From positions 2,389,313 to 2,453,312 of the forward strand of contig NZ_KI912608.1 in assembly GCF_000519265.1 (NCBI RefSeq): a stretch of 64,000 bases of DNA, read 5' to 3'. Numbering within the stretch: the stretch's first letter is position 1; each line of letters begins with the position of its first letter. Below are positions 1,311-44,863 of the stretch, piece after piece. Origin of the DNA: Desulfonatronum lacustre DSM 10312 (GTDB taxonomy: Bacteria; Desulfobacterota; Desulfovibrionia; Desulfovibrionales; Desulfonatronaceae). The notes below the pieces were generated by a model. It saw nothing but the letters and a program-made list of their open reading frames with translations. It made no database searches and had not been told where the DNA came from. A program made the position numbers and the translations under genes.

Positions 1311-1507
1311 TCCGCCCCGGTCTTATCCATCCGGTGATCCATGGCCTCGCTGAGGCGCTGGGCCACATCTTCGCGGCGCAGGTCGATCTTTTCCTGGACC
1401 CGGCACCGGAAGAGGACTTTTTTCAGATCCTTGGCGAGCTGTTCCAGTTCTTCCACGGACAGTTCAGCGCAGAGGCTGAGGATTTGGTCAATCTTGGCTT
1501 GGCTCAT
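1307..1507 (-). CDS. Small helical protein of unknown function
   Basis: A 66-residue ORF whose start lies inside the 3' end of mazG (21-bp overlap) and whose stop overlaps the cmk stop from the other side. The sequence is charged and predicted largely helical (LSVEELEQLAKDLKKVL, then EDVAQRLSEAMDHRM), without membrane segments or a recognised domain. A GAGG sequence lies about 12 bases upstream of the ATG. Tight packing behind mazG-cvpA on the same strand suggests it is the last cistron of that operon. I do not recognise the family. It is a real gene more likely than not, because its composition is protein-like and no other frame here codes. Confidence 0.55.
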   Translation of the reverse strand: MSQAKIDQILSLCAELSVEELEQLAKDLKKVLFRCRVQEKIDLRREDVAQRLSEAMDHRMDKTGAD

Positions 1508-2285
1508 GGCGTTGTTTCACCTCGTTCCACAGGGCGTTCCAGGAATCCAGGTCCAGCCCTTCCAGGTCGATCCCTTTGGTTTCGGCCAACTGGGCCAGCT
1601 TGTCGAAGCGGTTCAGGAATTTGCGGTTGGCCCGGTCCAGGGCTTCGTTGGCCTTTAGTCCATGCCGTCGTCCGTATTCCACCAGGGTGAAGAGGTAGTC
1701 CCCGTATTCGTCCAGGGCTTTTTCGGCTGAATTGCCGTCTTCGCCCTGGACGGTGTGCCATTCTTGCCATTCCTGGTTCAGTTGTTCCCGCACACCGTCC
1801 GTATCCGACCAGGTAAAGCCCAGCCGTGCGGCCTTGGAATTGATGCGGTAGGCCCGCAACAGGGGTGGCAGCGTCGACGGGATGCCTTCAAAAGGGCCGC
1901 GGTCGGCCTTTTCCTTCTTTTTTTCCTTTTCCCAGTTGGCCCAGAGGGCGTCCAGGTTCGCGAAAGAGGCGTCGGCAAAGACGTGGGGATGGCGTCGGAC
2001 CATCTTGGCCGCGGCCTGGTCCAGGACGTCTTCCAGGGTAAAGCGTCCGTCCCGTTCCATCAGCCGGGTCACGAAAAGCAGCAGGAACCAGACATCGCCC
2101 AGTTCCTCGCGGACGTCGTCCGGTTTGTTCGAGCGGATGGCGTCCACCAGTTCATGCACTTCCTCAACCAGATAGTCGGCCAGGGTCGGCGGGGTCTGCT
2201 CCCGGTCCCAGGGGCAGCCTTCAGGGCCGAGCAGTCGTTCCAGTACGTCCCGCAGGCGCAACAGCGCGGTTTGATCGCCGGTCAT
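1488..2285 (-). CDS. mazG: Nucleoside triphosphate pyrophosphohydrolase MazG
   Basis: A 265-residue all-alpha NTP pyrophosphohydrolase, close to the length of two-domain E. coli MazG. The N-terminal domain carries CPWDREQTPPTLADYLVEEVHELVDAI followed by REELGDVWFLLLFV, the EExxE...ExxD magnesium/NTP-binding signature. A second weaker copy (LDEYGDYLFTLVEYGRR) lies in the C-terminal half. It removes aberrant or excess (d)NTPs by hydrolysing them to NMP and pyrophosphate in the cytoplasm. The start overlaps the cvpA stop by 4 bp (ATGA type), so cvpA, mazG and the small ORF form one minus-strand operon. Confidence 0.92.
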   Translation of the reverse strand: MTGDQTALLRLRDVLERLLGPEGCPWDREQTPPTLADYLVEEVHELVDAIRSNKPDDVREELGDVWFLLLFVTRLMERDGRFTLEDVLDQAAAKMVRRHPHVFADASFANLDALWANWEKEKKKEKADRGPFEGIPSTLPPLLRAYRINSKAARLGFTWSDTDGVREQLNQEWQEWHTVQGEDGNSAEKALDEYGDYLFTLVEYGRRHGLKANEALDRANRKFLNRFDKLAQLAETKGIDLEGLDLDSWNALWNEVKQRHEPSQD

Positions 2286-29470: not shown

Positions 29471-30976
29471 ATGACCAGTTTGTCAGCAGTGGTTTCTTCC
29501 TTCCGGATCATGAGGATTATTTCCTTGTCCATTGGCCTGTTATTCCTGGTTCCGAAGATTCTTTGCGCCGAGTTCGTACCGCATCAGGAGTCTGGGGCTG
29601 GGGAAGTTATGACCATGGAGACTGCGGAAGGCATCTTGAAAGAGGCGCTAAACCGAAAATTGATCGATATGGGCATTGAGAATGCCGGACCCAAGATCGC
29701 GTTGATTCCGGCCACGGATATCGGCGGTGCTGCGGGGGCGTATATTGAAGGAGATTTTGACGGTCTTGAACGCTGGATGAAAACCATTGTCGCAAAAACT
29801 CTTGTCGCCGCAGGGACAGGAATAGCCGTTGGAACCGGCACTGTTGCCGCTACGCCGGTCGTGGTGGGCATAGTGACAGCAACAGTGACCCAAATTGCAA
29901 TCGACAGATACTATTTTCTGCAGGATCTTGAGGAAGTTGAGAAAAGGAGAAAGATGGCGGAATACTATCAGAAAAGTCTTACCGAATTTCAAATTTCGGA
30001 AATGAACTTTTATGAAAAGTATCTTCAGGACATTCAAGCAGAAATCGACGGTAAAGACATGTATTTTGCTTTGGCCAAATACAAAGACTATATGGATCAT
30101 TTGCAATTGATCCATGATCATTTGCAAACCGACTACAATACCGTTGAAGAACGCCTGCGTGCCCGCCTCGAAGAGTATCCTCAGGCTGGAATATTTCTGC
30201 CTGGCATGACTGAGTCGCATAAGACGTTTCGAATTTCTTCCGAGAAAAGCCATATCTATAAAAAAACCATGTTCATTAAAAGCCTGATGGAAAAAGCCAA
30301 ACGAAGTTTTCCGCAATTCGCTAAAAACGATCCTGTTCGGGTTTCCATCAATGACCCTGAAGATGGAAAAGTAACTGGACCGGACGATTGCAGCTCTTTT
30401 TCACACAATTTTCAGGCGAAAATAGATCTTCATCGTCAAATAAGTCAAGAATTTGGCACAAATGCAGCGCAATATTTCGAACATTACGAAGACGATTTGA
30501 AAGAAAGACTTCTGTCAAATGATATCCATGGATTTCTTTCAAGAAAATTGAGCAACAATACGTATGAGAATGTCCTGCGAAACAGCTATTATTATTACGA
30601 ATGCCAGATTGATGGAACAGCTGAGGGGAGCAGCCACAATGGCGTAGTCCGGATGGGAGATATGATCGATTTCGGATGGTATATGGATCCAAAAAACAAA
30701 GATCAACATAACATTTCGATTAAATTGTATCTTGTTACTGATGAAAGCGTGGATCGATCCATTTTATGGAACAGTGACGCCTGGTCCGGCATGAAAAAAA
30801 CCTTGATCTCGGAGGATTCCATCAACATTACGGTGGATTGCAAGGAAATGAAGGAAAAAAGCTATGTCACGTCACGCCATCGACAAAGCGACTGGTATTG
30901 CACCAACCGTCCCGTGATCCAGGCGCCGGTGACGTTGCCGCCGATCATTTCAATCACGGAGGAGAATCAGCAATGA
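29471..30976 (+). CDS. Exported protein of unknown function, AT-rich
   Basis: A 501-residue protein with a signal sequence (IMRIISLSIGLLFLVPKILCAE). A Gly/Ala/Val hydrophobic segment (TLVAAGTGIAVGTGTVAATPVVVGIVTATVTQIAI, residues about 115-150) resembles pore-forming or membrane-inserting hairpins. A helical middle follows (VEKRRKMAEYYQKSLTEFQ), then a C-terminal domain with a few cysteines (YYYECQIDG, NITVDCKEM, WYCTNRP). Codon use and base composition are clearly more AT-rich than the flanking genes, suggesting a different origin. ATG 29471 is chosen (AGAGAGG seven bases upstream) over ATG 29465. The stop overlaps the next start (ATGA), so it is coupled to the giant gene. Confidence 0.7.
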   Translation: MTSLSAVVSSFRIMRIISLSIGLLFLVPKILCAEFVPHQESGAGEVMTMETAEGILKEALNRKLIDMGIENAGPKIALIPATDIGGAAGAYIEGDFDGLERWMKTIVAKTLVAAGTGIAVGTGTVAATPVVVGIVTATVTQIAIDRYYFLQDLEEVEKRRKMAEYYQKSLTEFQISEMNFYEKYLQDIQAEIDGKDMYFALAKYKDYMDHLQLIHDHLQTDYNTVEERLRARLEEYPQAGIFLPGMTESHKTFRISSEKSHIYKKTMFIKSLMEKAKRSFPQFAKNDPVRVSINDPEDGKVTGPDDCSSFSHNFQAKIDLHRQISQEFGTNAAQYFEHYEDDLKERLLSNDIHGFLSRKLSNNTYENVLRNSYYYYECQIDGTAEGSSHNGVVRMGDMIDFGWYMDPKNKDQHNISIKLYLVTDESVDRSILWNSDAWSGMKKTLISEDSINITVDCKEMKEKSYVTSRHRQSDWYCTNRPVIQAPVTLPPIISITEENQQ

Positions 30977-33900
30977 CCAGACTCGGCCTTGCTCGAAGAA
31001 ATCTCGGATCAGTCAGGGTTGCTCCTCGGTTTGCAGGACTTTTCATCGGCCTTTTTCTGGCCGTTTTGGCGCTGAACCTCATACTTCCCGGACGGCTGGA
31101 GGCAGGGTTTTCCGGTCCTTTGGCCGTCCAGATAACGGCTTCGGGCAGTGAGGGAAATGCAACTCCGCTGGCAGGGGTGACGGTGTATCTCGGCGGGCGT
31201 CATGCCGCCACTGGTGCGGAGGGCGTGGCGGTTTTCACCGGACTGCCGACCGGGGCGTACGCACTGTCCGTGCACCATCCTGGTTTTGACCGCGTGGCAC
31301 GGCAGGTCGAGATACCGGGAGGACAGCGCCAGCCCATTCCCGTGCAGCTTGAATCGACGCAAACCCAGGAATGGACGGCGCAAGTGCTCATGGACGGGTT
31401 GGATATTCCCGTTGCCGGAGCCCGGGTGGATTTGATCCCCAAGGACGTGAACGCCGTTCTGTCTGGGCCGGTGCGCATGGTCAGCGACTGGGAGGGCGCG
31501 TTGAGCGCTGTTGCCGTGCCCCACGGCAGATACGGTCTGGAAATCCAGGCCATGGGATTCGAGCCGCTGCGCCAGGAACTGACCATTGGCGAAGCTCTCG
31601 AAACGCCTGCCTTCCTCCTGCGCCGACTGTCCGAATCCGCCCGCCTGTCCGTGCAGGTGACGGACAGCGGCGGAAAACCTCTGCCCGACGCGGAGGTGGT
31701 CCTGGCCGAGGTCTGGCCCAGCGGCGTTCTGGCCACGGGGCGGACCGACATGAGTGGAGCAGTTGTCTTTGACAACTTGCGGGTCGGTCCGATCAACCGG
31801 CCCGATGCCGAGGGGCGGATGGTCGTGTCCCGCCGCACCCTGACCGTGCGGGCCGAGGCCCAGGGGCATGTTCCGGCAGTGGTCCGGGCAAGCCTGGCCG
31901 GTGAGCCGCAAGAGGTGCGCATTGCTCTGACGCCGGAGGTCGGGCGCGAACTGCGAGAGCCCGGCCCTAACGGGTCCGAGCCTTTGGAACTCGGGGTGCC
32001 TGTCTCCTTTGCCATTTCCCGGATCGGCCAGAAATATCAATTCCTGCTTCGCCTGCCGGAACCGGCCCTGCTCAAGCTGAACATTGCCCAGGGCGGGCCC
32101 ATTGGGACGCATCTTCGCTTGTACGACGGCCAGGGACAATTGCTCCAGGAACGCGGCGCCTATGCCGGGCACGCCAATGGCTTTGAACGGGCCGTGGCCG
32201 CGGGCAGCTACCATGTGGAAATTTCTGAACGGGGAGGCAACAACGCTTCGGAAACACCGCTGACATTTACGGCGTCCAGCGAGCCGGCCGTTGATCCTCT
32301 GGAACCCAATGACAGCGATGACGCCGCGTCCTTGCTGCAGCCGGGCGAACAGATGGTCGGCCTGATCTGGCCGCGCGGCGACCGGGACGTATTTCGGATT
32401 CAGGTGGAACGTCCTGGCTTTCTGCGCATCCATGACCAGGGCATTGCCTTGGAGCGGCATGTCATTGTCCGCGATGCAGCGGGAAAGATGCTCGGCGAAC
32501 GGGGCGTCTACACCAACATGCCCATTAATCTGGTCGTGCAGGTTGCTCCGGGCTTGCATTTCGTGGAGGTTCGGGAGTGGGGCGACAATGGCGAGTCCCT
32601 GACCCCGTACAGGATGAGCGTGGATCTGTTGCCGGACGACGGCGTGGATGATCCGCCGCTGGGCAGTGGCAGCGTGGCCGCGGTGCGGACCCTGGATATT
32701 GAGTCCCTGGTGGGAAGTACGATTTTGCCCATTGGCGACATCGACGTGTTCAGTCTTGCCGTTCCCGGCGCCGGACGCCTGCATCTGCAGAGCAGCGGCA
32801 AGATGGAGCGCCACGTGCAGCTTTTTGACAGGTCCGGCAAGCTGCTTGCCGAACGCGGCGCGTACAGCAATGGTCTCCTGACATTTTCCTGGTTCGTGGA
32901 TGGACCGGAGACGTTTTTCGTGGCCATCCGCGAATGGGGCGACAATAATTGGTCGCCCAGCGCGTATGTCCTTTCCGCATGGCTGGAGCCGGCTGATGAA
33001 CTCGATTTTCTTCAGCGCAACGACGACATTGCCCGGGCTTTGCCCCTTGGCTTGGGGGAGACCATTCACGGCAGTTATTTTCCCATGGGGGATCGAGACG
33101 TCTTTGCCGTGGAAACCGATTTTCCGGGTTATCTGCGGGTCAGTGCCCAGTCTCCCCTGGAAACCCATCTGCGTATTCTGGACGCGGACGACGCACTGGT
33201 CGCCGAGCGCGGGGCGTACAGCGGCAAAACGGCTGAATTGGCCCCGCCTGTCCAGGCCGGACGCTATTTCGTGATGGTCGGCGAGTGGGGCGACAACAAC
33301 GCCTCGGTGGAGCCGTACATCCTGTCCGTGGCCCTGGACCGGGTGGAGCCCGACGAAACCTGGCCCTTGGCGGATGATCCGCCCCGCCGTCTGGCGGACG
33401 GAGAGGCCCGGGCCTTCAGCATCGATCACCGTGGGGACCGGGACCGCTTCCTGTTCGACATGCCCGTTGCCGGTGACGTGACCTTGAGTGTGGCCGCACC
33501 CTTGGAAACGTTGATCCGAGTCTTTGACGACCGCACCGGCGAACGGTTGAAGGAGTGGGGACGGTATGCGCCGACCCGGTTCAATGAGGTTTTGCCCGTC
33601 CAAGGACCGACCCGGTTGCGGGTGGAACTGACCGAATGGGGCGACAACAGTGCCAGTCTGGAACCCGGCTTCATCATGCTGGACACCCGCAACCGGTCCC
33701 TTGTCGCGGATATGGTCCGGGCCCAGGTAGACCCCTTGCGTCCGCAACGGGTCGTGTTTCAGCGTCACCGGACCGAATACACCGACGCGCCGCAACGCTG
33801 CGGCATGGACCTGAACGGCGACGGCCGCGAAGATGTCCGCCTGGATGGCGAGGAACCGGTTTCCGGCGACTTTCCGGAACAGGGGCTGTACGTGGTGGAG

Positions 33901-36900
33901 GCCGTCTGTTCCGGAACGGACGGCCAGCGCTCCCGGCAGCGCTTCTGGGTCCAGGCCACCGGCCCTCGGGACCGGGCCGGAATGCTGGTCACGGTGAACA
34001 ATCTGTCCGAGGGCCAGGTCGTCTCCGCGCCGCTGACCCCCCAGGCCCAGGCCGTCAGCTTTGATGGACTGCCCATCTCCCGTGTGGAATTTTTCCTGGA
34101 CGGCAAGTCTCTCGGCAGTGACGGCCAGCCGCCCTACGAGGCTGCCGTGAACTGGCCGGGACTTTCCGGTGGGCAGCATGTCCTGACCGTTGTGGCCAGG
34201 GAACGGGGCGGCAATGAGGCCAAACTGGAACGCAGCTTTGTGCTTTCCGACTACTTCGATCTGACTCCGCCCAACGGGGCCATGCTCACCGGGGAAACGG
34301 TTACGGTCAGTTGGCAGGCGCCCACGTTCGGTCCGGCCCGGGTGCGTTACCGGCCCCAGGGCGGGGATGATGAGGACTGGACCGAGATCACGGGGCAATC
34401 CGCAAGGCAGCGGGTGGTTCGTCTGCCGGGTCTGGAGACCGGGGTGACCTACGAGTTCCAGCCCTTGGGCGGACCTGATCCAGCGGTTGACCCCGGCCCG
34501 ATCCGCGTTCTGACCCGGGTCAAGGGGTTGGCTTTCGGCCGCGCCCAGTACGCCGCGAACATCCGGCGCGACTATGATCAGCGGGTGGGTGTGAGCGTGC
34601 GCAACAATGGTGACGAACCGCTGATGGTCCGCCTGGAGAGCGGCCAGCCCGAAGACCCGTTGATGCTGGCCAGTTTCGTGGGCACAGGCTCGGAAGACAG
34701 GCCTTTTGCCTTGGCGGCCGGGGAAGAGCGGGAATTCCAGTTCGCCATCAGCGCGCAAAACGTGAACACCGAAGAGCATCGCATTCCGATCCGTATTGTC
34801 TCTGAAACCGGCCTGAGCGACGAGAGCGAGATTGTCGTGCATGTCCGGCTGCCGCACGTTGAGCTGGAGTGGTCGGACCTTGGCCCGTCACCGGGCGGCA
34901 TGGGGCGTACTCTGCGGTTGACGAATCTCGGTGATGCCCTCACCGATCTGTCCGTGCAGCCCGCCAAAGCTCATGCCGTGGTTCTGTCGCCCACGGTGCG
35001 GCATGGTTTGCTGCCCCGCGGCGCACGAATGGATTTCGTGGTCACACCACGTTTCTACGATGGTTTTACCGGGGTAAAGACGGAAATCCTGGCTCTTGGT
35101 CTGGACAAGACCTTTGCATTCCCTTTTGCGATGCAGCTTGAGCCCGGGCAGGCAATGCACCGGGTCTGGCTGTTGCCGGGGATTGATCCCGACGATCCCA
35201 TGGCTCGTAATATTGAGGCGGACTTGCCGGAACGGATCGACCGCGCCAGGGCTGTTGGCCTGGACGAACTGGACTGGCAAAACCTGGGGACGGGCAGCGA
35301 CACAACCGGTGATGGCCGACCCGACCGTTGGGTGTTGGTCAGGGATGGTATCGAATGGACCGGAACGGACGGCGACGGCGACGGAATTGTGGACCATGCA
35401 GCCGCGGATGTGGATCGGAACGGAATGAGTGAATTTGCCGCCCTGCGACGCGGTGATCGCTGGCAGCCGACCAATGTGGTGGAGGCTTGGTTGGAGATGA
35501 CTTTCGCCTTGCGCGGCGCCCGCGACAGCTACAAGCCCCATGACGTGGAGGTGGTCCTCAACGACGTGGTCATCGGCGTGCTCAAGGACATGTTGCCGGA
35601 AGGCAACTTCAGCTTCCGCATTCCCCCCAATGCCCTACGCTTCGACGAGTCCGGCCTGCCCGGGGACAATCGGGTCGGCCTGCGCACCACCCATCTGCGT
35701 GGGGGGCACTATGCCGTGAACAGCGACTTTCGCTTCAAGTTCCGGCTCACCGCGACTCCGGCCTGGACGGTGGGCGCGTCCGTCGAGGAAGCGAGAATGC
35801 AGGCCGTGGCCATGAGCGGAGTATCCTTGACGGCGCCCGATCTGAGCCTGTCCGCGGCGCAACTTGAGATCCTTGGACCTGCCGAACCCAATGCCGGGGA
35901 TGAGATGCGCCTGCGTTTCCCGGTGCGCAATCTTGGAGCATCCACGGCAACCGACGTGGCAGTGGCGCTGCTGCGCATCCTGCCCGGAGGCAGCCGCGAA
36001 GAACTGGCTCGGACCACGGTCCCGGAGGTGGGACTGGATCAGCCAAGCTACGGCGCCATGGACTGGCGAATTCGCGGTGGGCTGAACAACCTCGCCCTGG
36101 TCGTCGATCCGGAGAACATGTTTGATGATCCTGATTTGGCGAACAACGAAGCCTTGTTTACCCTCACCGCCGCCGGCGACGACACGCCCCCCGTGCTGCG
36201 CATCCTCCAACCCACGGTCGGCGTGGTGCAAGACACCGTGGTGATGCTGGAGTTGGAGGTTGACGACGAAGCCGGACCGGTTTCCCCGCTGGTGTCCATT
36301 GATCGCGGGCTCTGGACCGAATTGCCGGCCACCCGTGGTCGGCTCGGTGTTCCGTTGCTGCTCCAGCCGGGCGCGCATACCATCGATGTCCGTGTCGTGG
36401 ACGGGTCGGGGAACGAAGCTTCTCAGACCTTGGAGTTGACCATCGAGCGGACGTTGCCCGTTGCCCGACTGATTTCGCCGGTGGACGGCGCAACGGTCAG
36501 CGAATCCATCCTTTCGGTTGATGTTCAGGTCCCCGGAGATGTCGGTCTTGTGGCGGCACGGACCGCAGGTGGTCCGTGGCACAAGGCGAGTCTGCTCGGA
36601 GACGTGGCTCAGGTCGAATTGCCTCTGCGGTTTGGTTCGCAAACGCTTGAAGTCATGGTCGCGGATCGCCATGGAGCCATGCGTCTTCTCAGCGCCGGGA
36701 TAACCCGCACCACCCAGCCCACAGCGGATGAACGGCTGTCCGGTCCGGCGGCTTCGGATCAAGGGCTACTCTGGCCCCATGGGCATCCCAATCTGGAGAT
36801 CGATCTGTTCCAGGCGTCCAGCGGGGTCCTGCGTCGACTGGCCATGAATCCGGAACAGGAAGCGATCCGACTCTGGGAAGAAGCCCGCCGCCGCCAGGTT

Positions 36901-37038
36901 CAGGGAGACTATGCCGGGGCGTTGACCCTCTACCGGGACAGTCTGATGCTCAAACCGGACCCGCAAACCGAAGACCGGGTCAAACGCCTGGAGGCCTATC
37001 TGGGAATTCGCCGCATCAATCCGGTGCTGCCGAAGTAG
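30973..37038 (+). CDS. 2021-residue exported multidomain repeat protein
   Basis: A giant exported protein: signal/anchor FAGLFIGLFLAVLALNLILPGRLEAGF, then three carboxypeptidase-regulatory-like (CarboxypepD_reg) beta domains (about residues 50-310; VTVYLGGRHAATGAEGVAVFTGLPTG). Next are five tandem pre-peptidase-C-terminal-like repeats of about 117 residues, each with ERGAY-like and EWGDN-like motifs (Glu419, 535, 654, 771, 888). Ig/FN3-like and CARDB-like beta domains follow, with Asp-rich calcium-type loops (DLNGDGRED; TTGDGRPDRW; DGDGDGIVDH) and a short TPR-like end (EQEAIRLWEEARRRQVQGDYAGALTLYRDSL). Probably a surface or periplasmic adhesin/scaffold; no catalytic domain seen. ATG 30973 (GGAGGAG seven bases upstream) overlaps the previous stop. 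Confidence 0.83.
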   Translation: MTRLGLARRNLGSVRVAPRFAGLFIGLFLAVLALNLILPGRLEAGFSGPLAVQITASGSEGNATPLAGVTVYLGGRHAATGAEGVAVFTGLPTGAYALSVHHPGFDRVARQVEIPGGQRQPIPVQLESTQTQEWTAQVLMDGLDIPVAGARVDLIPKDVNAVLSGPVRMVSDWEGALSAVAVPHGRYGLEIQAMGFEPLRQELTIGEALETPAFLLRRLSESARLSVQVTDSGGKPLPDAEVVLAEVWPSGVLATGRTDMSGAVVFDNLRVGPINRPDAEGRMVVSRRTLTVRAEAQGHVPAVVRASLAGEPQEVRIALTPEVGRELREPGPNGSEPLELGVPVSFAISRIGQKYQFLLRLPEPALLKLNIAQGGPIGTHLRLYDGQGQLLQERGAYAGHANGFERAVAAGSYHVEISERGGNNASETPLTFTASSEPAVDPLEPNDSDDAASLLQPGEQMVGLIWPRGDRDVFRIQVERPGFLRIHDQGIALERHVIVRDAAGKMLGERGVYTNMPINLVVQVAPGLHFVEVREWGDNGESLTPYRMSVDLLPDDGVDDPPLGSGSVAAVRTLDIESLVGSTILPIGDIDVFSLAVPGAGRLHLQSSGKMERHVQLFDRSGKLLAERGAYSNGLLTFSWFVDGPETFFVAIREWGDNNWSPSAYVLSAWLEPADELDFLQRNDDIARALPLGLGETIHGSYFPMGDRDVFAVETDFPGYLRVSAQSPLETHLRILDADDALVAERGAYSGKTAELAPPVQAGRYFVMVGEWGDNNASVEPYILSVALDRVEPDETWPLADDPPRRLADGEARAFSIDHRGDRDRFLFDMPVAGDVTLSVAAPLETLIRVFDDRTGERLKEWGRYAPTRFNEVLPVQGPTRLRVELTEWGDNSASLEPGFIMLDTRNRSLVADMVRAQVDPLRPQRVVFQRHRTEYTDAPQRCGMDLNGDGREDVRLDGEEPVSGDFPEQGLYVVEAVCSGTDGQRSRQRFWVQATGPRDRAGMLVTVNNLSEGQVVSAPLTPQAQAVSFDGLPISRVEFFLDGKSLGSDGQPPYEAAVNWPGLSGGQHVLTVVARERGGNEAKLERSFVLSDYFDLTPPNGAMLTGETVTVSWQAPTFGPARVRYRPQGGDDEDWTEITGQSARQRVVRLPGLETGVTYEFQPLGGPDPAVDPGPIRVLTRVKGLAFGRAQYAANIRRDYDQRVGVSVRNNGDEPLMVRLESGQPEDPLMLASFVGTGSEDRPFALAAGEEREFQFAISAQNVNTEEHRIPIRIVSETGLSDESEIVVHVRLPHVELEWSDLGPSPGGMGRTLRLTNLGDALTDLSVQPAKAHAVVLSPTVRHGLLPRGARMDFVVTPRFYDGFTGVKTEILALGLDKTFAFPFAMQLEPGQAMHRVWLLPGIDPDDPMARNIEADLPERIDRARAVGLDELDWQNLGTGSDTTGDGRPDRWVLVRDGIEWTGTDGDGDGIVDHAAADVDRNGMSEFAALRRGDRWQPTNVVEAWLEMTFALRGARDSYKPHDVEVVLNDVVIGVLKDMLPEGNFSFRIPPNALRFDESGLPGDNRVGLRTTHLRGGHYAVNSDFRFKFRLTATPAWTVGASVEEARMQAVAMSGVSLTAPDLSLSAAQLEILGPAEPNAGDEMRLRFPVRNLGASTATDVAVALLRILPGGSREELARTTVPEVGLDQPSYGAMDWRIRGGLNNLALVVDPENMFDDPDLANNEALFTLTAAGDDTPPVLRILQPTVGVVQDTVVMLELEVDDEAGPVSPLVSIDRGLWTELPATRGRLGVPLLLQPGAHTIDVRVVDGSGNEASQTLELTIERTLPVARLISPVDGATVSESILSVDVQVPGDVGLVAARTAGGPWHKASLLGDVAQVELPLRFGSQTLEVMVADRHGAMRLLSAGITRTTQPTADERLSGPAASDQGLLWPHGHPNLEIDLFQASSGVLRRLAMNPEQEAIRLWEEARRRQVQGDYAGALTLYRDSLMLKPDPQTEDRVKRLEAYLGIRRINPVLPK

Positions 37039-37086
37039 GGCTCGGCAACCATACATATGATCACTTTACAAACCAGGAGAGGGCAG

Positions 37087-39144
37087 ATGGTGCAGGGGTT
37101 GATGAACCGGCTTGCCGTAGCTGTTAAAAAGGGAGGAAGGGGAATGCGTATTCTGATCGGTCTGTTGGCGGTAATCATGGTTGGTGGATTGCATGCCGCC
37201 GGAGCGACCCGGGCCTTTGGCGCAGTGGAACAGCAAAGCCAAGCCGGAGTTGAAATAGCCCACGGTCCGGATGGCTTGCTGGAACTGGAGCAGCAGGGTC
37301 AGGTCACTGTGCGGGCCTTACGAGCCTGGGGACGACTGCCTGATCATTTTTTGCAACTGGGACAACGGTTGCGTCAGGATCACGGACTGGATCTGTTGGC
37401 GGCGAACCTGGAGCAGATCAAGGCCTGGATTGCCCAGGCTGAAGCAGGAGATGCCGGGCTGGCCCCGTTTAAACAAGAGTTGTCCGATCTGGCGGCGTTC
37501 ATGCAAGGCGGGGAGTATCTTGACTGGCAGGATGTTCAGGACATGGCCACGGTTGCCCAGGGTTCTGTCGTGCGCCAGGATGGACGACGATGGGTCAGAT
37601 CGGAAAGTCAGGGGCTCAATCCGGCCGAACCTCAAGTTCATGAATCATCGACTGAAATACCTGATGTCATGGTTGAAGAAACACCAATACGGTCAACAGC
37701 GGCAGTGGGGCCGGAAAGTCCAGAGGTCGACGGTTTGGGAGATGTCTCTCCGGATGGAGCCGACCTTGTTGAGGGCCGGGAAAAGCCGGTGGCCGGTCCT
37801 GGCGCTGATCCGAATTGGGAGTGGCCCATGGCCGCACCGGAGAGCATGAATTTCGAGTTGCCGGAACGCGCCTTGGCGAAACAAGAAATTCGGATGTCCG
37901 ACGACATGCGCCACATGGCCTGGCTGGAGGGGGAGGAGGGACAAAGGCGCGTTCTGCTGAACGGCAATCCAGGCAAATGGTATGACTACATTGGAGGAGG
38001 CTATTCCCTGCACTTCTCATCCAACGGCGAAACGTTCTGTTTCGAGGCGGAGCTGGGAGAAATGGAGATCCCAGTATGCAATGGAGTTGAAGGACCCATT
38101 TTTGAAGATATTGAAGCTGTAACCATCAGCGAAGATGGAACTCGGACCCTTGTTGCCGGACGGGTGAGCAAGGGCGTGTACCGGTTGTTCCTGAATGGCG
38201 AACTGATTCGCGAAACAGATGCGGAGATTCGCAGACCCATCCTGTCCGCAGACGGCACAGTCGCTTGGTCGGAGAAAAACCGAGACAACGGTTCAGAAAA
38301 GATGATGACCTCACAGGGTCGCGAAGATCAGCCTTACCAGACCATCTATGATCGGAAATTTACAGCGGAAAGCAGTGACCTGCTGTATATCGCGGTAAAG
38401 GAAGACAGCCTGCGTTTTCTCGTACGCAATGGCGAAGAACTGCAGCCGACCATGGGCTCGGGATACAAGTTTTCAGCGACGCCGGACGGGGCTCATTACG
38501 CCTATGTCAGCCCCTGCGAAGAATTTCTGTCCTGCATGGTCATCAACGGACGGGTCGGTCCACCTTACGATAATATTTGGGATCCTGCCTTACTCAGCGA
38601 GGATGGAACACGTTCGGCGTATGTCGCCAAAACCGAAGATAGCGCAGCATTGGTGCTGAATGAGTCGGAATTTCGACATGGTTTCGGCAATCTGAAGAAC
38701 ATTGTCGGCCTGACCTTCAGCCCGGATGGTCGGCGCTGGGCAGCAGGACTGCAACTCGCGGACGACGAGTATGTTTTGATGGTGGATGGAGAGGAAATCG
38801 CCCGCCGGGCCGGACAGCCCCGGCAACTCGTGTTCAGTCCGGATGGAACCAAGGTTGCCTGGCTGGAAAAGCAGGGCCGGTTCTGGCGAGTTCTTTTGGA
38901 TGGCGTCGAGGGGCCCGGGGACAGGGAAATCTTTGACCAGGCGCCTCCCCAGTTCAGTCCGGACAGCCGACACCTGGTCTATTTTCATCGCGATAAGGAA
39001 AGGATGCACATCGCCGTATTCAACGGCCCGGAGCGCAGCCACGAAATGATTCCGCCCTATGCCGTCTTTTCCGAGCACGGAGCCATGTACATGGCCGGGG
39101 AGGGGCATCGCTTCCAGCGCATGATCCTCCCTTTGGACGAGTGA
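37087..39144 (+). CDS. Exported protein: VRALRAW module plus WD40-like propeller
   Basis: A 685-residue exported protein. The signal region (MRILIGLLAVIMVGGLHAAGATRAFG) is followed by the VRALRAW module (LEQQGQVTVRALRAWGRLPDHF...DLLAANLEQIKAWIAQAEAGD...FKQELSDLAAFM), shared with the S41 protease and the protein at 21641. A Pro/Glu-rich linker leads to a C-terminal PD40/WD40-like propeller (RMSDDMRHMAWLEGEEGQRRVLLNG, AVTISEDGTRTLVAG, PILSADGTVAWSEK, LTFSPDGRRWAAG, LVFSPDGTKVAWLEK, QFSPDSRHLVYF). The start is uncertain: ATG 37087 (AGGAG, seven bases upstream) and ATG 37144 (GGAGG, seven bases upstream, directly at the signal peptide) are both plausible. Role unknown. Confidence 0.75.
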   Translation: MVQGLMNRLAVAVKKGGRGMRILIGLLAVIMVGGLHAAGATRAFGAVEQQSQAGVEIAHGPDGLLELEQQGQVTVRALRAWGRLPDHFLQLGQRLRQDHGLDLLAANLEQIKAWIAQAEAGDAGLAPFKQELSDLAAFMQGGEYLDWQDVQDMATVAQGSVVRQDGRRWVRSESQGLNPAEPQVHESSTEIPDVMVEETPIRSTAAVGPESPEVDGLGDVSPDGADLVEGREKPVAGPGADPNWEWPMAAPESMNFELPERALAKQEIRMSDDMRHMAWLEGEEGQRRVLLNGNPGKWYDYIGGGYSLHFSSNGETFCFEAELGEMEIPVCNGVEGPIFEDIEAVTISEDGTRTLVAGRVSKGVYRLFLNGELIRETDAEIRRPILSADGTVAWSEKNRDNGSEKMMTSQGREDQPYQTIYDRKFTAESSDLLYIAVKEDSLRFLVRNGEELQPTMGSGYKFSATPDGAHYAYVSPCEEFLSCMVINGRVGPPYDNIWDPALLSEDGTRSAYVAKTEDSAALVLNESEFRHGFGNLKNIVGLTFSPDGRRWAAGLQLADDEYVLMVDGEEIARRAGQPRQLVFSPDGTKVAWLEKQGRFWRVLLDGVEGPGDREIFDQAPPQFSPDSRHLVYFHRDKERMHIAVFNGPERSHEMIPPYAVFSEHGAMYMAGEGHRFQRMILPLDE

Positions 39145-39265: not shown

Positions 39266-40948
39266 ATGGCACGGCCAATTCTATCCATGTCCATAATGTT
39301 GTGTCTGCTTTTTGCCGGATTATGCTGGACCTCGCCTGTCTCGGCCCAGGGCCGCAAGGGCGATGTCTACTTCGTGGAAACGGATGTGGATCTGAACCGT
39401 GACGGCTCGGCGGTGGTAGCCTATACCGTGCAGTGGCGGGTGGTGGGGGACCGGTTGCGGGGGTTTGTGTTTTCCGGGAATGACCGCTTGCGGGTGGGCC
39501 CGTTCAGTGAGAAATCCCATGCCGTGGACGATGATGGGAACCGGTATGATCTGGAAATCAACCGGATGCAGCCGGGTGCGTATGAAATCCTGCTGGCCCG
39601 TGGGCAGGGGGTCCGTTCAGGGCATGTGACCTATCGATTCTGGTTTCCGACAAATTTTGCCGCGGCCGGATATGTTGCGCCGACCACGGCCGAGGACGGG
39701 CGGGAACTGGTGGTCTTCAACTGGTCGCCGGTGCAGTGGGACGAGGCGGAGCGCCAGCGTCATTACACCCTGCGGGTGCATACCCCGCACCAACTGCCGG
39801 CGGATGTCATTGATCCGCGGGCGTATGTTCTGGAAAATGATTTCGTCCTCACCGAGCCCTGGGTCAACGACCGCTACCGGATCGACTACCAGCGCGGCGA
39901 GCATGGCCGACTGGTGCTGCTCTTTCACCGGGACTCGCCGGGCAACAAGTATCATTTGCGGGTCCAATATTACCTGCCGGCGGATTGGTTTGATTTGGCC
40001 GGGGCGGCGCCGCTCCCCCAAGCTTCAGCAACGCAACGCACCGACCCGGTTCGGACGCCGACAGGATTGGCTGTCGCGGAAAAGAGCTTCCGTTCTCTGC
40101 TGAACGGCAGCCCAAATCTGCTTTTTCTGCTCGGCGCTGCGGGACTTTTGGCCTTGTTCTACGTCCTGATGATCGGAAAGCAACGTTCCATGGTCAAAGC
40201 CCATCGCGGCCTGGATGAAATCCGCTGGGAAGGATTGGACTGGACCCCGCCCAAACTGGTGCTGGCCAACTTCCGGATCAAGGGCAAGGTTTGCAAGGAG
40301 CTCACTCCATTGGAAGCCGCATTTTACCTGGAAGTTCCCTTCCGGCAGATCCTCAGCGCAATGTTTCACTCACTGCGGCGCGAAGGCTATCTTGAAGTGA
40401 TTGCCGAGAGCCCAACCCTCAAGGCCAGGGTCCTGCGCCCGCCTGAAAACCAGATGGACATCTACGAGCGGATGTTCATCCACGCGTTTGCCAACGACGG
40501 AGAGTTGTCCCAGCAAGAGCTGGAGGAAATCATGAACATGGCCGTGCGGGCCATCCAGCAAAAGGCCTGGGATTGCGACGTGCAGGCCACCCAGGACTAC
40601 TGGCGGGAACGTATCGCCGAGTACGACCGGGAAGAGCGCGAAACCGCCGGCCGCCGGAACAATCGAGACGATTCCCAATACAATCGCTGGTACTGGTGGT
40701 ATCACAACAGTCACGGCTATTATGGTCGGCGGTATGCCTATGAGGACGACCCCTGGCGGCACGAATCCGTGATGCCCATGGACAGCGACCACCTCCAGCG
40801 CAGCTTCATCAACACCTCCCCGGCCTTTGACATGAACGTCTGCCACGACGCCTGTCATTCGGCCTGTCACTCGGCATGCCATTCCGCCTGTCACTCGGCC
40901 TGTCATTCCGCCTGCCATTCGGCCTGCGTCAGCGGAGGGTCGCGGTGA
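39266..40948 (+). CDS. DUF2207-like membrane protein with C-terminal Cys-repeat tail (probable rSAM substrate)
   Basis: A 560-residue protein: signal peptide to about residue 28 (AQG), a periplasmic beta-rich DUF2207-like domain (VDLNRDGSAVVAYTVQWRV...FWFPTNFAAAGYV), one helix at about 288-308 (LLFLLGAAGLLALFYVLMIG) and a cytoplasmic C-terminal half (LTPLEAAFYLEVPFRQILSAMFHSLRREGYLEV, winged-helix-like). This ends in an aromatic/His-rich segment (NRWYWWYHNSHGYYGRRYAYE) and eight cysteines spaced exactly four residues apart (Cys526-Cys554): CHDA, six CHSA units and CVSG. The predicted topology puts the tail in the cytoplasm, where the radical SAM enzyme encoded next could act on it. The next gene's GTG overlaps this stop. 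ATG 39266 has ACGAGG upstream. Confidence 0.82.
   Translation: MARPILSMSIMLCLLFAGLCWTSPVSAQGRKGDVYFVETDVDLNRDGSAVVAYTVQWRVVGDRLRGFVFSGNDRLRVGPFSEKSHAVDDDGNRYDLEINRMQPGAYEILLARGQGVRSGHVTYRFWFPTNFAAAGYVAPTTAEDGRELVVFNWSPVQWDEAERQRHYTLRVHTPHQLPADVIDPRAYVLENDFVLTEPWVNDRYRIDYQRGEHGRLVLLFHRDSPGNKYHLRVQYYLPADWFDLAGAAPLPQASATQRTDPVRTPTGLAVAEKSFRSLLNGSPNLLFLLGAAGLLALFYVLMIGKQRSMVKAHRGLDEIRWEGLDWTPPKLVLANFRIKGKVCKELTPLEAAFYLEVPFRQILSAMFHSLRREGYLEVIAESPTLKARVLRPPENQMDIYERMFIHAFANDGELSQQELEEIMNMAVRAIQQKAWDCDVQATQDYWRERIAEYDREERETAGRRNNRDDSQYNRWYWWYHNSHGYYGRRYAYEDDPWRHESVMPMDSDHLQRSFINTSPAFDMNVCHDACHSACHSACHSACHSACHSACHSACVSGGSR
40841..40936 (+). repeat. 12-bp in-frame tandem repeat encoding the CHSA tail
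   Basis: Eight 12-bp units encode Cys-His-Asp-Ala, six Cys-His-Ser-Ala and Cys-Val-Ser-Gly. Units differ at synonymous positions (TGC/TGT, CAT/CAC, TCG/TCC, GCC/GCA), so the protein sequence is kept while the DNA has drifted. The GGAGGG that serves as ribosome site for the radical SAM gene lies at the end of the repeat (40934-40939). Confidence 0.95.
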
Positions 40949-42423
40949 TCGGGTTGCGCCGCTTTTTCGGCGGACGCCGTACGCCCCCTGTGCCGCCTGC
41001 GTTGGGGTGGGTGGATGAATTCATCACCAATGTCCGGCCCTTCGTGGTGGTCCGCCTGGAGGACAATCTGCTCATCCGGATGCCCAACCAGGCCCATCGC
41101 CTGAATCCGACGGGGGCACAGGTGCTGCACTTTTTGCTGTCCGGCGGAAAAATTGGCGAGCTCGTCGCGCGGATCGGCGAACAACAGCTGGACCGGTTGC
41201 GTGATGTGGCCCTGTTTCTCCATGCAATCCGGCGCTGTCTTTCCGGTGACCTGCGCGAGGACAATGCCGGATGCGCCGTGGAAATCGCACCTTTGGAAAC
41301 GGTATTCAGCGCCTTGCCGGTGTTGTCCGAGATGGCCCTGACCCGACGATGCAATCTGCGCTGCGTCTTTTGCTATGCCGGTTGTGCCGGGGCTTGCGGA
41401 AAAGTGAATGCCGCGGGAAATCCGCAAGAAAAGGGTGCTGATACTTTGGAGATGAGCACACGCGAAGTGAAGACCATCCTGGAACGAATTCGCAACCAGG
41501 CCCATGTACCGTCGGTCAGCTTCACCGGCGGGGAGCCGACCCTGCGTCCTGATCTGCCGGAGTTGATTCGCCACGCGTCCCGAGAACTGAGCATGCGCGT
41601 CAACCTGATCTCCAACGGCACGCTGATCACGCCCGGACTGGCGAACGAACTGGCCGACGCCGGGCTGGCCTCGGCCCAGATCAGCATCGAGGGACCGGAC
41701 GGGGCCAGTCATGACGCCATCACCCAGGTTCCGGGCTCCTTTGTCCGGTCCTGCCGGGCGGTGGAGCGGCTGCGCGATGTCGGGATCACGGTGCATTGCA
41801 ATACGACCATCAATCGCCGCAATCTGGAAGTGGTGACGGACATGCCTGTATTCGTGCGCGATGTCCTGCATGGCGAACGGTTCAGCATGAACATGGTCAT
41901 TCCGGCCGGAAGCGCGAGTCAAAATGAGAATCCGGATCAGCAGTCCAACCCGTCGATCCTAGTACGCTATACGGAAATGGCCTCCGTGGTCCTGGCCGTG
42001 CAACAGGCCGCCGCGGCTGCGGGAGTGGAGTTCATGTGGTATTCGCCCACGCCGCTCTGCCTGTTCAATCCGATTCTGGCTGAGCTGGGCAACAAGGGCT
42101 GCAGTGCCTGCGACGGGCTGCTCTCGGTGGATTCCTTCGGCCGGATTCTGCCCTGTTCCTCCTGCGAAGATCCCATGGGCAATCTGCTGGATGAAGATTT
42201 TCAGACCATCTGGGAGCGGTCCGGCTCGACAACCTATCGCAACAAAGGCCTGGCGCATCCATCCTGTCGGCAGTGCGACCACTTTCCGTTCTGCCACGGC
42301 GCCTGTCCCTTGTACTGGCAGCATTTCGGCTTTGCGGAACTGGAGGATGCCCGCGGGTTTACCGCATGTCCCGCGCCCCGCATCCCGCTTGAACGACCTG
42401 TCGGCCGCACTGTCTCTTCTTGA
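40945..42423 (+). CDS. Radical SAM/SPASM peptide maturase with N-terminal PqqD-like domain
   Basis: A 492-residue cytoplasmic enzyme. Residues about 20-105 resemble a PqqD/RRE peptide-binding domain (LEDNLLIRMPNQAHRLNPTGAQVLHFLLSGGK). The radical SAM core has CNLRCVFC (Cys136, 140, 143) for the catalytic 4Fe-4S cluster and SFTGGEPTLRPDL. The SPASM region carries further Cys ligands: CSAC (386/389), ILPCSSC (404/407) and SCRQCDHFPFCHGACPLYW. Such enzymes install thioether, C-C or epimer modifications on ribosomal peptides. The likely substrate is the Cys tail encoded just upstream. GTG 40945 (GGAGGG five bases before) overlaps the upstream stop by 4 bp; the longer ORF from ATG 40876 reads the repeat in another frame and is rejected. 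Confidence 0.92.
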   Translation: MIGLRRFFGGRRTPPVPPALGWVDEFITNVRPFVVVRLEDNLLIRMPNQAHRLNPTGAQVLHFLLSGGKIGELVARIGEQQLDRLRDVALFLHAIRRCLSGDLREDNAGCAVEIAPLETVFSALPVLSEMALTRRCNLRCVFCYAGCAGACGKVNAAGNPQEKGADTLEMSTREVKTILERIRNQAHVPSVSFTGGEPTLRPDLPELIRHASRELSMRVNLISNGTLITPGLANELADAGLASAQISIEGPDGASHDAITQVPGSFVRSCRAVERLRDVGITVHCNTTINRRNLEVVTDMPVFVRDVLHGERFSMNMVIPAGSASQNENPDQQSNPSILVRYTEMASVVLAVQQAAAAAGVEFMWYSPTPLCLFNPILAELGNKGCSACDGLLSVDSFGRILPCSSCEDPMGNLLDEDFQTIWERSGSTTYRNKGLAHPSCRQCDHFPFCHGACPLYWQHFGFAELEDARGFTACPAPRIPLERPVGRTVSS

Positions 42424-42454: not shown

Positions 42455-43471
42455 ATGACCACTGCCAGTCCGCCCCGGGATCTTTCCGCAGGTTCGTCCC
42501 TGTTTACCCTTTCCGCCCAGGAGCAAGGCATTGTTGTTTTTCACTTTCGACCATCCATGCCTTATGGGAAACGCTTGGCTGTTTCCTTTGCCATGGTCGT
42601 TGCCGGATTGGTGATCCAAGCCTTGACCGGAATGTTCTGGGTTGGAGCACCTGTATTGTTTGCCGGCTCCCTGCTGCTCTGCGTCCGGGGGTATCACAAC
42701 CGGGTGGAAAGCGGCAGTTTCAATCCGGATGCTGCGTGGGAAAACGTGGACATCCAGCGCTTACGGGACTTGCAGGAGATCGACAAAAAAATGCTGCGCT
42801 GGAACCGCTCCTTCATGGACGTGACCAATTCCTGGGGCGTTATCACCCTGATTCTCGTGGCAGGACCAGCTCTTTACAGCCTGGTTCATCACCTGGAATT
42901 CGGTCATGGAGTCTTTGCGCCAAGTGTCGAGATGCTGCTGTTCAATGCGCTGATCCTGCTTACGCCGCACTGGGTAACGGGTACTCGGAGAATTTTGCGT
43001 CTGCCCAAGCTGATGGTCAAGGTGGAGAGTTTGCAGTCCCTTCTGGAGAATGCCGAGAAACTGGTCGGACCGGATCAGGTCACGGTGATAATGTTGCTCA
43101 AGGGCAAGACCAAGATCCCCGATGATGTCAAATTGCGGATTCAGATTCCCGATGCACCCAAGGATTTTCTGGGCATGTACGTCCAGGTAGTGACCAATGA
43201 CGTGAAGGGAACGAGTTATCCGTACGTGTATGTTGTTCTGGTTGCCAAACAGGGGTATGGCTTGGAGGCGGCCACGGCCGGGATTGCCCCGCCCAAGGGA
43301 ATTATCAAGGAATACCAGGAACAGGACGATGTGGAGATCATAGTTCTGCGCCAGCAAACCACCAAAACCAGCGGCTACCATACCAAACCCTCCAAGGCCT
43401 CGGTAATTTTCACCAACGGGCTGAACATGGCCAAGGCAGCGGTGAGCGGAGAGAATGGAACGGTATTGTAA
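42455..43471 (+). CDS. Membrane protein of unknown function next to rSAM maturase
   Basis: A 338-residue protein with four hydrophobic segments in two pairs: RLAVSFAMVVAGLVIQALTGMFWVG, GAPVLFAGSLLLCV, SWGVITLILVAGPALYSLVHHL and VEMLLFNALILLTPHWV. A cytoplasmic C-terminal domain of about 150 residues follows (VKVESLQSLLENAEKLV, LRIQIPDAPKDFLGMYVQVVTNDVKGTSYPYVYVVLVAK). No Cys-rich motif and no known family. GAGAGG lies eight bases before ATG 42455. The gene is 31 bases after the radical SAM gene and 39 bases before the M48 gene, so it is probably part of the same operon. Confidence 0.75.
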   Translation: MTTASPPRDLSAGSSLFTLSAQEQGIVVFHFRPSMPYGKRLAVSFAMVVAGLVIQALTGMFWVGAPVLFAGSLLLCVRGYHNRVESGSFNPDAAWENVDIQRLRDLQEIDKKMLRWNRSFMDVTNSWGVITLILVAGPALYSLVHHLEFGHGVFAPSVEMLLFNALILLTPHWVTGTRRILRLPKLMVKVESLQSLLENAEKLVGPDQVTVIMLLKGKTKIPDDVKLRIQIPDAPKDFLGMYVQVVTNDVKGTSYPYVYVVLVAKQGYGLEAATAGIAPPKGIIKEYQEQDDVEIIVLRQQTTKTSGYHTKPSKASVIFTNGLNMAKAAVSGENGTVL

Positions 43472-43510
43472 TTGTTGTGGGCGAGTATCAGCAAGGAAAA
43501 GGAGAACCTC

Positions 43511-44863
43511 GTGCATCATCCGGCAAATCGAATCAGCACACGGTCCATGAACAGGCGGGATTTTCTCTGGTTGGCCACGGCTTCCACCGCCGGATTGGCC
43601 ACGGGTTGCGCTATCAATCCGGTCACCGGGGAACAGCAATTGATGTTTTTGTCCGAAGAGAGCGAAATTCAACTGGACCGGGAGAATTCCCCACATCAGT
43701 TTTCCGCGGATTACGGCGCGGTGCAGGATCAGCGCTTGAACCAGTATCTGGCCACGGTGGGACAGAGCATGACCGGAAACACCCATCGGGCGCACATGCC
43801 ATACTCGTTTCGCTGTGTGAACGCCACCTACGTCAATGCCTATGTGTTTCCCGCCGGCAGCGTGGCCACGACCCGCGGGATCATGCTGGAAATGAAAGAC
43901 GAGGGCGAGTTGGCCGGGTTGCTGGGACACGAACTGGGGCACGTCAATGCCCGGCATACGGCTTCGCGGATGTCCGTGGGCATTTTGACGAGTCTGGTGT
44001 TGATGGGAGCCTCAATGGCTTTGGCGTCCCAGGATGAAACTCTGGGTGCCATTGCCGCGGGCCTGGGCGGGGTTGCCGCCGGAGCCTTGCTGGCTCACTA
44101 CAGCCGAAGCGATGAGCGTCAGGCCGACGACCTGGGCATGGAGTACATGACCAAATCCGGCTATAGCCCGGAAGGTATGGTCGGGCTGATGGACGTGCTG
44201 CGCCGGATGCAAAAGAATAAACCGTCGGCCATTGAGATGATGTTTTCGACCCATCCCATGAGTGAAGAGCGCTATCAAACCGCGGTTCAGAACTCCAGTA
44301 CCACGTACACATCAGCCCGGGAGTACCCCGTGTACCGGGAGCGCTACATGGACCACACCGCCGGCCTGCGCAAAATCAAGGGGGCCATCGAAAAGATGCA
44401 GGAAGGCGAGAAGCAGATGAACCAGGAGCAGTTTCCCAAGGCGGAAACAGCTTTGAGCGACGCCCTAAAACAGGCGCCGGAGGATTATGCGGGGTTGGTG
44501 CTGATGTCCAAGTGTCAATTGGCCCTGGAACAGCCCAAGCGAGCTGAATTTTTCGCGGAAAAGGCCAGGCGGGTCTATCCGGCCGAGGCCCAGGCCCAGC
44601 ATTTGAGCGGCGTGGCCAAGCTGAACCTGAAGCAGTTTGATGCTGCGTATGCGCAATTCGACCGTTATGAGAAGATGCTTCCCGGCAACCCCAACACGGT
44701 CTTTTTGAAAGGGGTTACCTCGGAGAGCATGGGAAGGAAAGGCCGCGCCGCGGAGGAATACCAACGCTTCCTAGGCAGTGTGAACACCGGGGACAAGGCC
44801 CAATACGCTTATGGTCGGCTGGTGGAATGGGGCTACGTCTCTCCACCGGCACAGCAGCAATAG
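43511..44863 (+). CDS. M48-family metalloprotease lipoprotein with TPR-like tail
   Basis: A 450-residue exported metallopeptidase of the BepA/LoiP type. The N-terminus has a Tat-like, lipobox signal (NRRDFLWLATASTAGLATGC; lipid Cys33), followed by the conserved NPVTGEQQLMFLSEESE region. The zinc motif is HELGH (His140, Glu141, His144) with third-ligand helix DERQADDLGMEYM. The last 150 residues are TPR-like helices (FPKAETALSDALKQAPEDYAGLVLMSKCQLAL). BepA-type proteases assemble or degrade outer-membrane proteins. GTG 43511 is chosen because AAAAGGAG is six bases upstream; an ORF from 43472 has no ribosome site. Its position after the radical SAM pair may be functional or incidental. Confidence 0.88.
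   Translation: MHHPANRISTRSMNRRDFLWLATASTAGLATGCAINPVTGEQQLMFLSEESEIQLDRENSPHQFSADYGAVQDQRLNQYLATVGQSMTGNTHRAHMPYSFRCVNATYVNAYVFPAGSVATTRGIMLEMKDEGELAGLLGHELGHVNARHTASRMSVGILTSLVLMGASMALASQDETLGAIAAGLGGVAAGALLAHYSRSDERQADDLGMEYMTKSGYSPEGMVGLMDVLRRMQKNKPSAIEMMFSTHPMSEERYQTAVQNSSTTYTSAREYPVYRERYMDHTAGLRKIKGAIEKMQEGEKQMNQEQFPKAETALSDALKQAPEDYAGLVLMSKCQLALEQPKRAEFFAEKARRVYPAEAQAQHLSGVAKLNLKQFDAAYAQFDRYEKMLPGNPNTVFLKGVTSESMGRKGRAAEEYQRFLGSVNTGDKAQYAYGRLVEWGYVSPPAQQQ

Follow-up and report, generated by a model that had tools for sequence, protein, structure and literature searches.

An invariant cysteine-repeat tail of a membrane protein as the putative in-place substrate of an adjoining radical SAM/SPASM enzyme

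A 64,000-nucleotide stretch of the Desulfonatronum lacustre DSM 10312 genome (contig NZ_KI912608.1), referred to here as the window, contains a three-gene cassette in which a membrane protein ending in eight regularly spaced cysteines (MemP) is followed by a radical SAM/SPASM enzyme and by a second membrane protein, P3 (Table 1). The membrane-anchored MemP probably carries its own modifiable core, which would be oxidatively modified in place. This reading is carried by the exact conservation of the tail across phyla, by the apparent coupling of tail and enzyme gene and by a sister cassette in which another cysteine-rich tail accompanies a homologous enzyme. Nearly all that is known of radical SAM peptide chemistry comes from small peptides released by cleavage; if the reading is true, a fixed, phylum-spanning core of 33 residues on a large membrane protein would extend this chemistry to permanent protein cofactors or metal sites.

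Conservation of the MemP tail

The C-terminus of MemP reads VCHDA-(CHSA)x6-CVSG (written out, ...FDMNVCHDACHSACHSACHSACHSACHSACHSACVSGGSR), with cysteines at positions 526, 530, 534, 538, 542, 546, 550 and 554. The first-pass annotation of this DNA had described eight cysteines at exact four-residue spacing (Cys526 to Cys554) and a GTGA overlap with the next gene, and both are borne out, the former by the translation of the open reading frame (ORF) 39266-40948 and the latter by the four bases at 40945-40948 that the MemP stop shares with the GTG start of the enzyme gene.

A first look at four Desulfovibrionales-type genomes revealed tails identical in protein sequence and differing in codons. 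As a guard against circularity, an alignment of the MemP body free of the tail was used for a scan of one genome per species (body patterns WY[YW]WYHN and [HYL]FVET[DE]VD) among the genomes available, many of them metagenome-assembled. This tail-blind scan returned 17 MemP homologues from seven phyla, about 50% identical in the body, with records from several orders of Desulfobacterota, from Pseudomonadota (Chromatiaceae, Sedimenticola), Cloacimonetes, Aminicenantes, Gemmatimonadota, Planctomycetota and Chloroflexi, and from one unclassified bacterium. All 17 end in VCHDA(CHSA)6CVSG. In 20 non-redundant sequences the tail comprises 33 consecutive invariant residues while none of its 33 codon columns is invariant, and the 190 sequence pairs show zero replacements against a mean of 18.4 synonymous codon differences in 33; elsewhere in MemP no invariant run exceeds 4 residues. 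By this comparison the tail is under extreme selection, far beyond chance, and since copy number stays constant in a slip-prone 12-base tandem repeat, that selection is for exactly eight cysteines. Because the tail is exactly invariant it offers a clean test case, in which one peptide and one enzyme represent the whole family.

The remainder of MemP points to a location of the tail on the enzyme's side of the membrane. Given the predicted signal peptide, periplasmic beta domain and single transmembrane (TM) helix, followed by the basic residues GKQRSMVKAHRG (positive inside), the tail should be in the cytoplasm, in agreement with the topology first proposed. The beta domain has a fold similar to the membrane-proximal domain of ribophorin I/Ost1 and the N-domain of M1 aminopeptidases (8agb_E: VIA Z 16.6, root-mean-square deviation (rmsd) 2.6, 180 aligned). 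The linker and tail were modelled at low confidence, and the helix drawn for the tail, with a predicted local distance difference test (pLDDT) value of about 40, was not used as evidence. Part of the C-terminal half matches TIGR04222 below its cut-off (30.1 bits against 43, profile positions 28-120 of 229), and C343 within this region is the sole invariant MemP cysteine outside the tail. The label "DUF2207-like" given to MemP at first pass stands in part: 8 of 15 MemP relatives weakly match PF09972 (best E 5.8e-5), whereas the window protein has no Pfam match, the PF09972 gathering score of 24.4 not being reached, and the kinship is remote (hhalign probability 53.5% against a DUF2207 set). On these profile comparisons MemP is a remote DUF2207/TIGR04222 relative. 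At the locus Rfam gave no RNA element, and the promoter/terminator scan came out close to shuffled expectation.

Several other observations were made during the scans. A tail match in genome G400 (L008/L012) was rejected as a 36-residue frame within a 12-base minisatellite of another gene; this minisatellite (L012 1448-1555), which reads YPAC on one strand, resembles the tail and is repeat noise. A match in G406 was taken as chance, and in a scan of viral contigs the repeat turned up (contigs L075-L077) in nothing but short repetitive ORFs unrelated to MemP. The MemP frameshift in L032 is probably an assembly error. The cassette of Desulfobulbus alkaliphilus (L018 2220-6423) is as close to that of the window as congeneric ones are (MemP 74%), which suggests lateral transfer.

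The enzyme, P3 and related systems

Retention of the tail and adjacency of the enzyme gene had been set beforehand as a check on the pairing, and the outcome was favourable: the tail is present in 17/17 homologues, and the enzyme is the next gene after MemP in 16 of the 17 loci and lies elsewhere in the genome in the 17th. The reverse also holds. Over 395 genomes of the window's phylum the enzyme profile exceeds 700 bits in only two, both with MemP, the next level at about 250 bits being the sister system described below, and in Gemmatimonadota the enzyme occurs in 3 of 249 genomes, each time with a MemP tail directly upstream. No close enzyme orthologue was seen in sampled genomes without MemP. 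As far as gene occurrence tells, tail and radical SAM/SPASM gene thus appear strictly coupled both ways. One of the three Gemmatimonadota genomes has, in addition, a second partial enzyme with P3 on another contig (L074 2-2178), whose upstream part lies beyond the available sequence.

The radical SAM and SPASM assignments made at first pass stand, with scores above the cut-offs for both PF04055 (92.9 bits against 29.5) and PF13186 (26.3 bits against 21.5), the latter matched by all 16 family members. The CxxxCxxC cysteines C136, C140 and C143 are kept in 16/16 enzymes. The full SPASM cysteine pattern is CX9-15GX4C, CX2CX5CX3C and a final C; its first two blocks are invariant (C389-x9-G-x4-C404 and C441-x2-C444-x5-C450-x3-C454), the final Cys is not conserved, and C147, C372 and C386 are further invariant cysteines. 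The closest solved structures by enzyme profile are SkfB (best), a thioether-forming maturase, and PqqE. No enzyme relatives were found on plasmids.

P3 follows the enzyme at every locus with enough sequence and stays beside it where MemP sits elsewhere (Cloacimonetes). It was seen only together with the system; of the 292 genomes of the phylum that were searched, the window's own has it (1/292) and none of the 291 others does. The model of its C-terminal domain (mean pLDDT 81.7) has as best structural matches class I type III secretion chaperones and YbjN-like proteins (Foldseek E 0.018-0.041), among them Spa15 (Z 8.2, rmsd 3.1, 116 aligned) and several SycT, InvB and YbjN entries. Class I secretion chaperone folds bind polypeptide segments. 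A chaperone role for P3 is only a lead, because this Z falls where a common arrangement is still possible.

A sister cassette was found in four genomes of another family of the same phylum, where the gene of a DUF2207-like membrane protein is followed by that of a radical SAM/SPASM enzyme homologous to the window's (hhalign probability 100%). The C-terminus of the sister membrane protein, GGGGCACACACAGCACACAGGGR, is identical in 4/4 genomes, and the sister tail, written as CACACACAGCACACAG, CACACACAG or CACACACAGCACACAGGGR, consists of Cys, Ala and Gly only, with no His. Profile comparison gives 97.5% over 125 columns for MemP against the sister proteins and 93.7% over 290 columns for the sister proteins against DUF2207. 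Moreover, a true TIGR04222 protein in genome G173 (106 bits) has a Gly/Ser/Cys tail, GCSGGCGGSSGCSGGCSGGGCGGCGGD, and the gene after it encodes a SPASM enzyme other than these. Since both the sister cassette and the TIGR04222/SPASM locus exist besides the CHSA cassette, the pairing of a cysteine-tailed membrane protein with a SPASM enzyme has arisen or diversified more than once. The L055 locus (293-2250, minus strand) shows such a true TIGR04222 protein with a Gly/Ser/Cys tail, and the top NCBIfam match of the SPASM radical SAM enzyme encoded after it is the ACGX system enzyme, under cut-off.

Comparison with described systems sets the cassette apart in several respects. DUF2207 proteins (YciQ-type, PF09972/PF20990) share with MemP a signal peptide, an N-terminal beta domain, a TM segment, a cytoplasmic part, a low-complexity tail and remote profile similarity, whereas in 12 of them sampled in the phylum the last 60 residues are free of Cys, most tails are rich in Gly/Ser, and the roughly 3 kb of DNA read around each contains no radical SAM gene. 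Because ordinary DUF2207 tails are mostly Gly/Ser and lack Cys, the cysteine-rich tails seem to be altered forms of the low-complexity tail that marks this superfamily. The TIGR04117, ACGX and Cys-every-fifth systems of NCBIfam, the latter two as their names indicate, likewise place tandem cysteines at a spacing of 4 or 5 beside a SPASM enzyme; in contrast, MemP scores 11.1 bits against the TIGR04117 CXXX-repeat target model (cut-off 50), and its repeat is the C-terminal segment of an anchored protein of 560 residues. MemP is therefore also unlike the short precursor with leader and core by which ribosomally synthesized and post-translationally modified peptides (RiPPs) are recognized, which leaves the proposed likeness in function untouched. 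The ranthipeptide maturase PapB and the sactipeptide maturase SkfB are radical SAM enzymes with a RiPP recognition element (RRE) and a SPASM or twitch domain that act on spaced cysteines, PapB joining Cys to Asp/Glu in CX3D/E (PMC9413430), but their substrates PapA and SkfA are small leader-bearing peptides.

The nearest precedent was proposed in 2025, when cysteine-tailed TIGR04222 membrane proteins were put forward as in-place substrates of MNIO enzymes (PMC12452194), so that the initial view that no kindred architecture had been described was too strong. In both cases a large membrane protein with a low-complexity cysteine-containing C-terminus lies next to an oxidative RiPP-type enzyme, and the C-terminal half of MemP retains the sub-threshold TIGR04222 match. 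The cassette differs in having a radical SAM/SPASM enzyme in place of MNIO and P3 in addition, in the lower TIGR04222 score of MemP, in its one TM helix with a tail predicted to be cytoplasmic rather than periplasmic, and in a tail of fixed rather than variable length and sequence. P3, the sister CACACA system and this MNIO-linked precedent were all missed by the first-pass annotation. No MNIO match was found among five window proteins around the locus, the neighbours at other loci having been checked by eye only. A description of the three-gene cassette was not found in the open-access literature searched, outside of which most subscription papers lie, nor did that literature yield a relevant CHSACHSA motif, a pairing of DUF2207 with radical SAM, or ACGX with radical SAM.

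Proposed modification and its alternatives

In the proposed mechanism, MemP would be exported and anchored by its one TM helix, its C-terminal half and tail remaining cytoplasmic. The enzyme would dock on MemP, probably via the PqqD-like N-terminal domain, and oxidatively modify the eight-cysteine tail in place, one repeat after another; that the tail is its substrate we strongly infer from the sequence comparisons. The chemistry may consist of thioethers from Cys sulfur to the alpha-carbon of the Ala or Gly flanking each Cys, guessed to be the most economical common product because the CHSA and CACACACAG tails share only Cys with Ala/Gly. Sactisynthases abstract a hydrogen from an alpha-carbon, which they then link to the sulfur of Cys, and Ala is an acceptor that SkfB can use (PMC8326336). 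Since the second auxiliary cluster seems to be without a conserved final Cys ligand, it could have room for a substrate thiol, as has been proposed for CteB (PMC8326336). P3 would probably hold or present the tail, which is a guess, and the tail, once modified, would act as a metal- or redox-active element that stays bound to the membrane and is not released as a peptide. For its physiological role, the cysteine density and the copper context of MNIO-modified relatives (PMC12452194) make a use in metal or redox chemistry the likeliest guess.

Several points weigh against in-place modification by this enzyme. The evidence for it is indirect. The PqqD-like segment is weaker than stated at first pass (14.7 bits against 23.4 for PF05402) and is detected, sub-threshold, in 6 of 16 enzyme relatives; the sister enzyme also stays under 23.4 (20.4 bits, E 6.6e-4), and an RRE role of the segment is plausible. 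The best curated family match of the enzyme is AhbD heme b synthase, and because its 134.6 bits are far under the cut-off of 500, the named subfamily is silent on the chemistry. The CX3C spacing offers no Asp, Glu or Thr acceptor at i+4, unlike in the ranthipeptide PapA (PMC9413430). MemP and the enzyme are non-adjacent in one Cloacimonetes genome, where MemP stands alone (L019) and the enzyme orthologue and P3 are together on another contig (L054 7910-10327). The correlation of MemP and enzyme distances (r=0.88, Mantel p 0.0002), which speaks for the coupling, could be inflated by common descent or by transfer of the cassette as a unit, and the P3 fold match is only middling.

Among the alternatives, a tail modification other than thioethers (epimerization, a C-C crosslink through His, cyclopropane formation or dehydration) is a serious though somewhat improbable possibility, as the SPASM/PqqE-like group has many chemistries (PMC8326336) and the His and Ser of each CHSA repeat are equally invariant; the sister tail of Cys, Ala and Gly implies that His or Ser chemistry is not the shared reaction. 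It is unlikely that the tail stays unmodified and serves as a sensor or chelator of Cu, Zn, Ni or Fe-S, with the enzyme directed at something else in the pathway. A stretch of 30 residues with eight Cys and seven His would bind soft metals, and TIGR04222 and bufferin relatives are discussed in a copper context (PMC12452194), but tails that bind metals can normally vary in the number of repeats and in the residues between the ligands, whereas here 33 residues, Ser and Ala among them, stay the same from phylum to phylum, and a sister tail without any His still keeps a homologous enzyme. The CHSACH strings also recall CXXXCH, a rare heme motif, but covalent heme c attachment is very improbable, as the sites overlap, the tail is predicted to be cytoplasmic and the sister tail has no His. 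Finally, although 12-base tandem repeats do occur as junk (as at L012 1448-1555 and in viral contigs L075-L077), a functionless drifting minisatellite or an artefact of dual coding with the enzyme 5' end is counted as refuted, given constant copy number, zero replacements and heavy synonymous change in 20 genomes, and the gap by which several genomes (L020 and L030 among them) keep the enzyme start clear of the tail.

Beyond oxidative modification of the MemP tail as such, the cassette could represent a radical SAM modification class in which a full-size anchored protein bears a permanent, multiply crosslinked cytoplasmic cysteine core served by a dedicated membrane chaperone. The product would be a metal or redox centre that is made by the ribosome and held at the membrane, and it would have evolved in two or more tail chemistries, among them CHSA and CACACAG. 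This proposal is tentative and stands a little short of an even chance. If it is true, DUF2207/TIGR04222-type proteins with Cys in low-complexity tails would provide a search rule.

Feature coordinates and neighbouring genes

Table 1. Positions of the cassette genes and their domains in the window, and of the sister cassettes in their own loci.
Feature	Position	Strand	Description
MemP	39266..40948	+	560 aa; predicted signal peptide, periplasmic beta domain, one TM helix, cytoplasmic C-half, Cys-repeat tail
MemP periplasmic beta-sandwich domain, aa 29-243	39350..39994	+	AlphaFold model and structural comparison
MemP single TM helix, aa 285-303	40118..40174	+	hydropathy scan; model helix 283-318
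MemP cytoplasmic TIGR04222-like region, aa 340-433	40283..40564	+	E 3.5e-7, under curated cut-off
Invariant tail VCHDA(CHSA)6CVSG, aa 525-557	40838..40936	+	eight Cys, one every four residues; putative core for modification
Radical SAM/SPASM maturase (putative)	40945..42423	+	492 aa, GTG start, CNLRCVFC motif and SPASM
PqqD-like segment (probable RRE), aa 38-80 of maturase	41056..41184	+	sub-threshold
SPASM domain, aa 386-445	42100..42279	+	conserved Cys 386, 389, 404, 441, 444, 450, 454
P3, membrane protein	42455..43471	+	TM helices at the N-terminus; soluble domain at the C-terminus (aa 187-338), with a possible type III secretion chaperone/YbjN-like fold
Sister cassettes	L052 5220-8281; L053 5020-7992; L011 4523-7678; L044		

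Right behind P3, the window encodes an M48 metalloprotease with TPR repeats (BepA-like; 43472-44863), which probably stands outside the cassette because it lies close to P3 in L015 and does not do so in L014. Upstream of the cassette lie a beta-propeller protein (37057-39144) that weakly resembles TmcD (62 bits; cut-off 440) and a protein of 2066 residues (30838-37038) containing repeated '(P/R)GDRDVF...WGDN' units and CARDB-like stretches.

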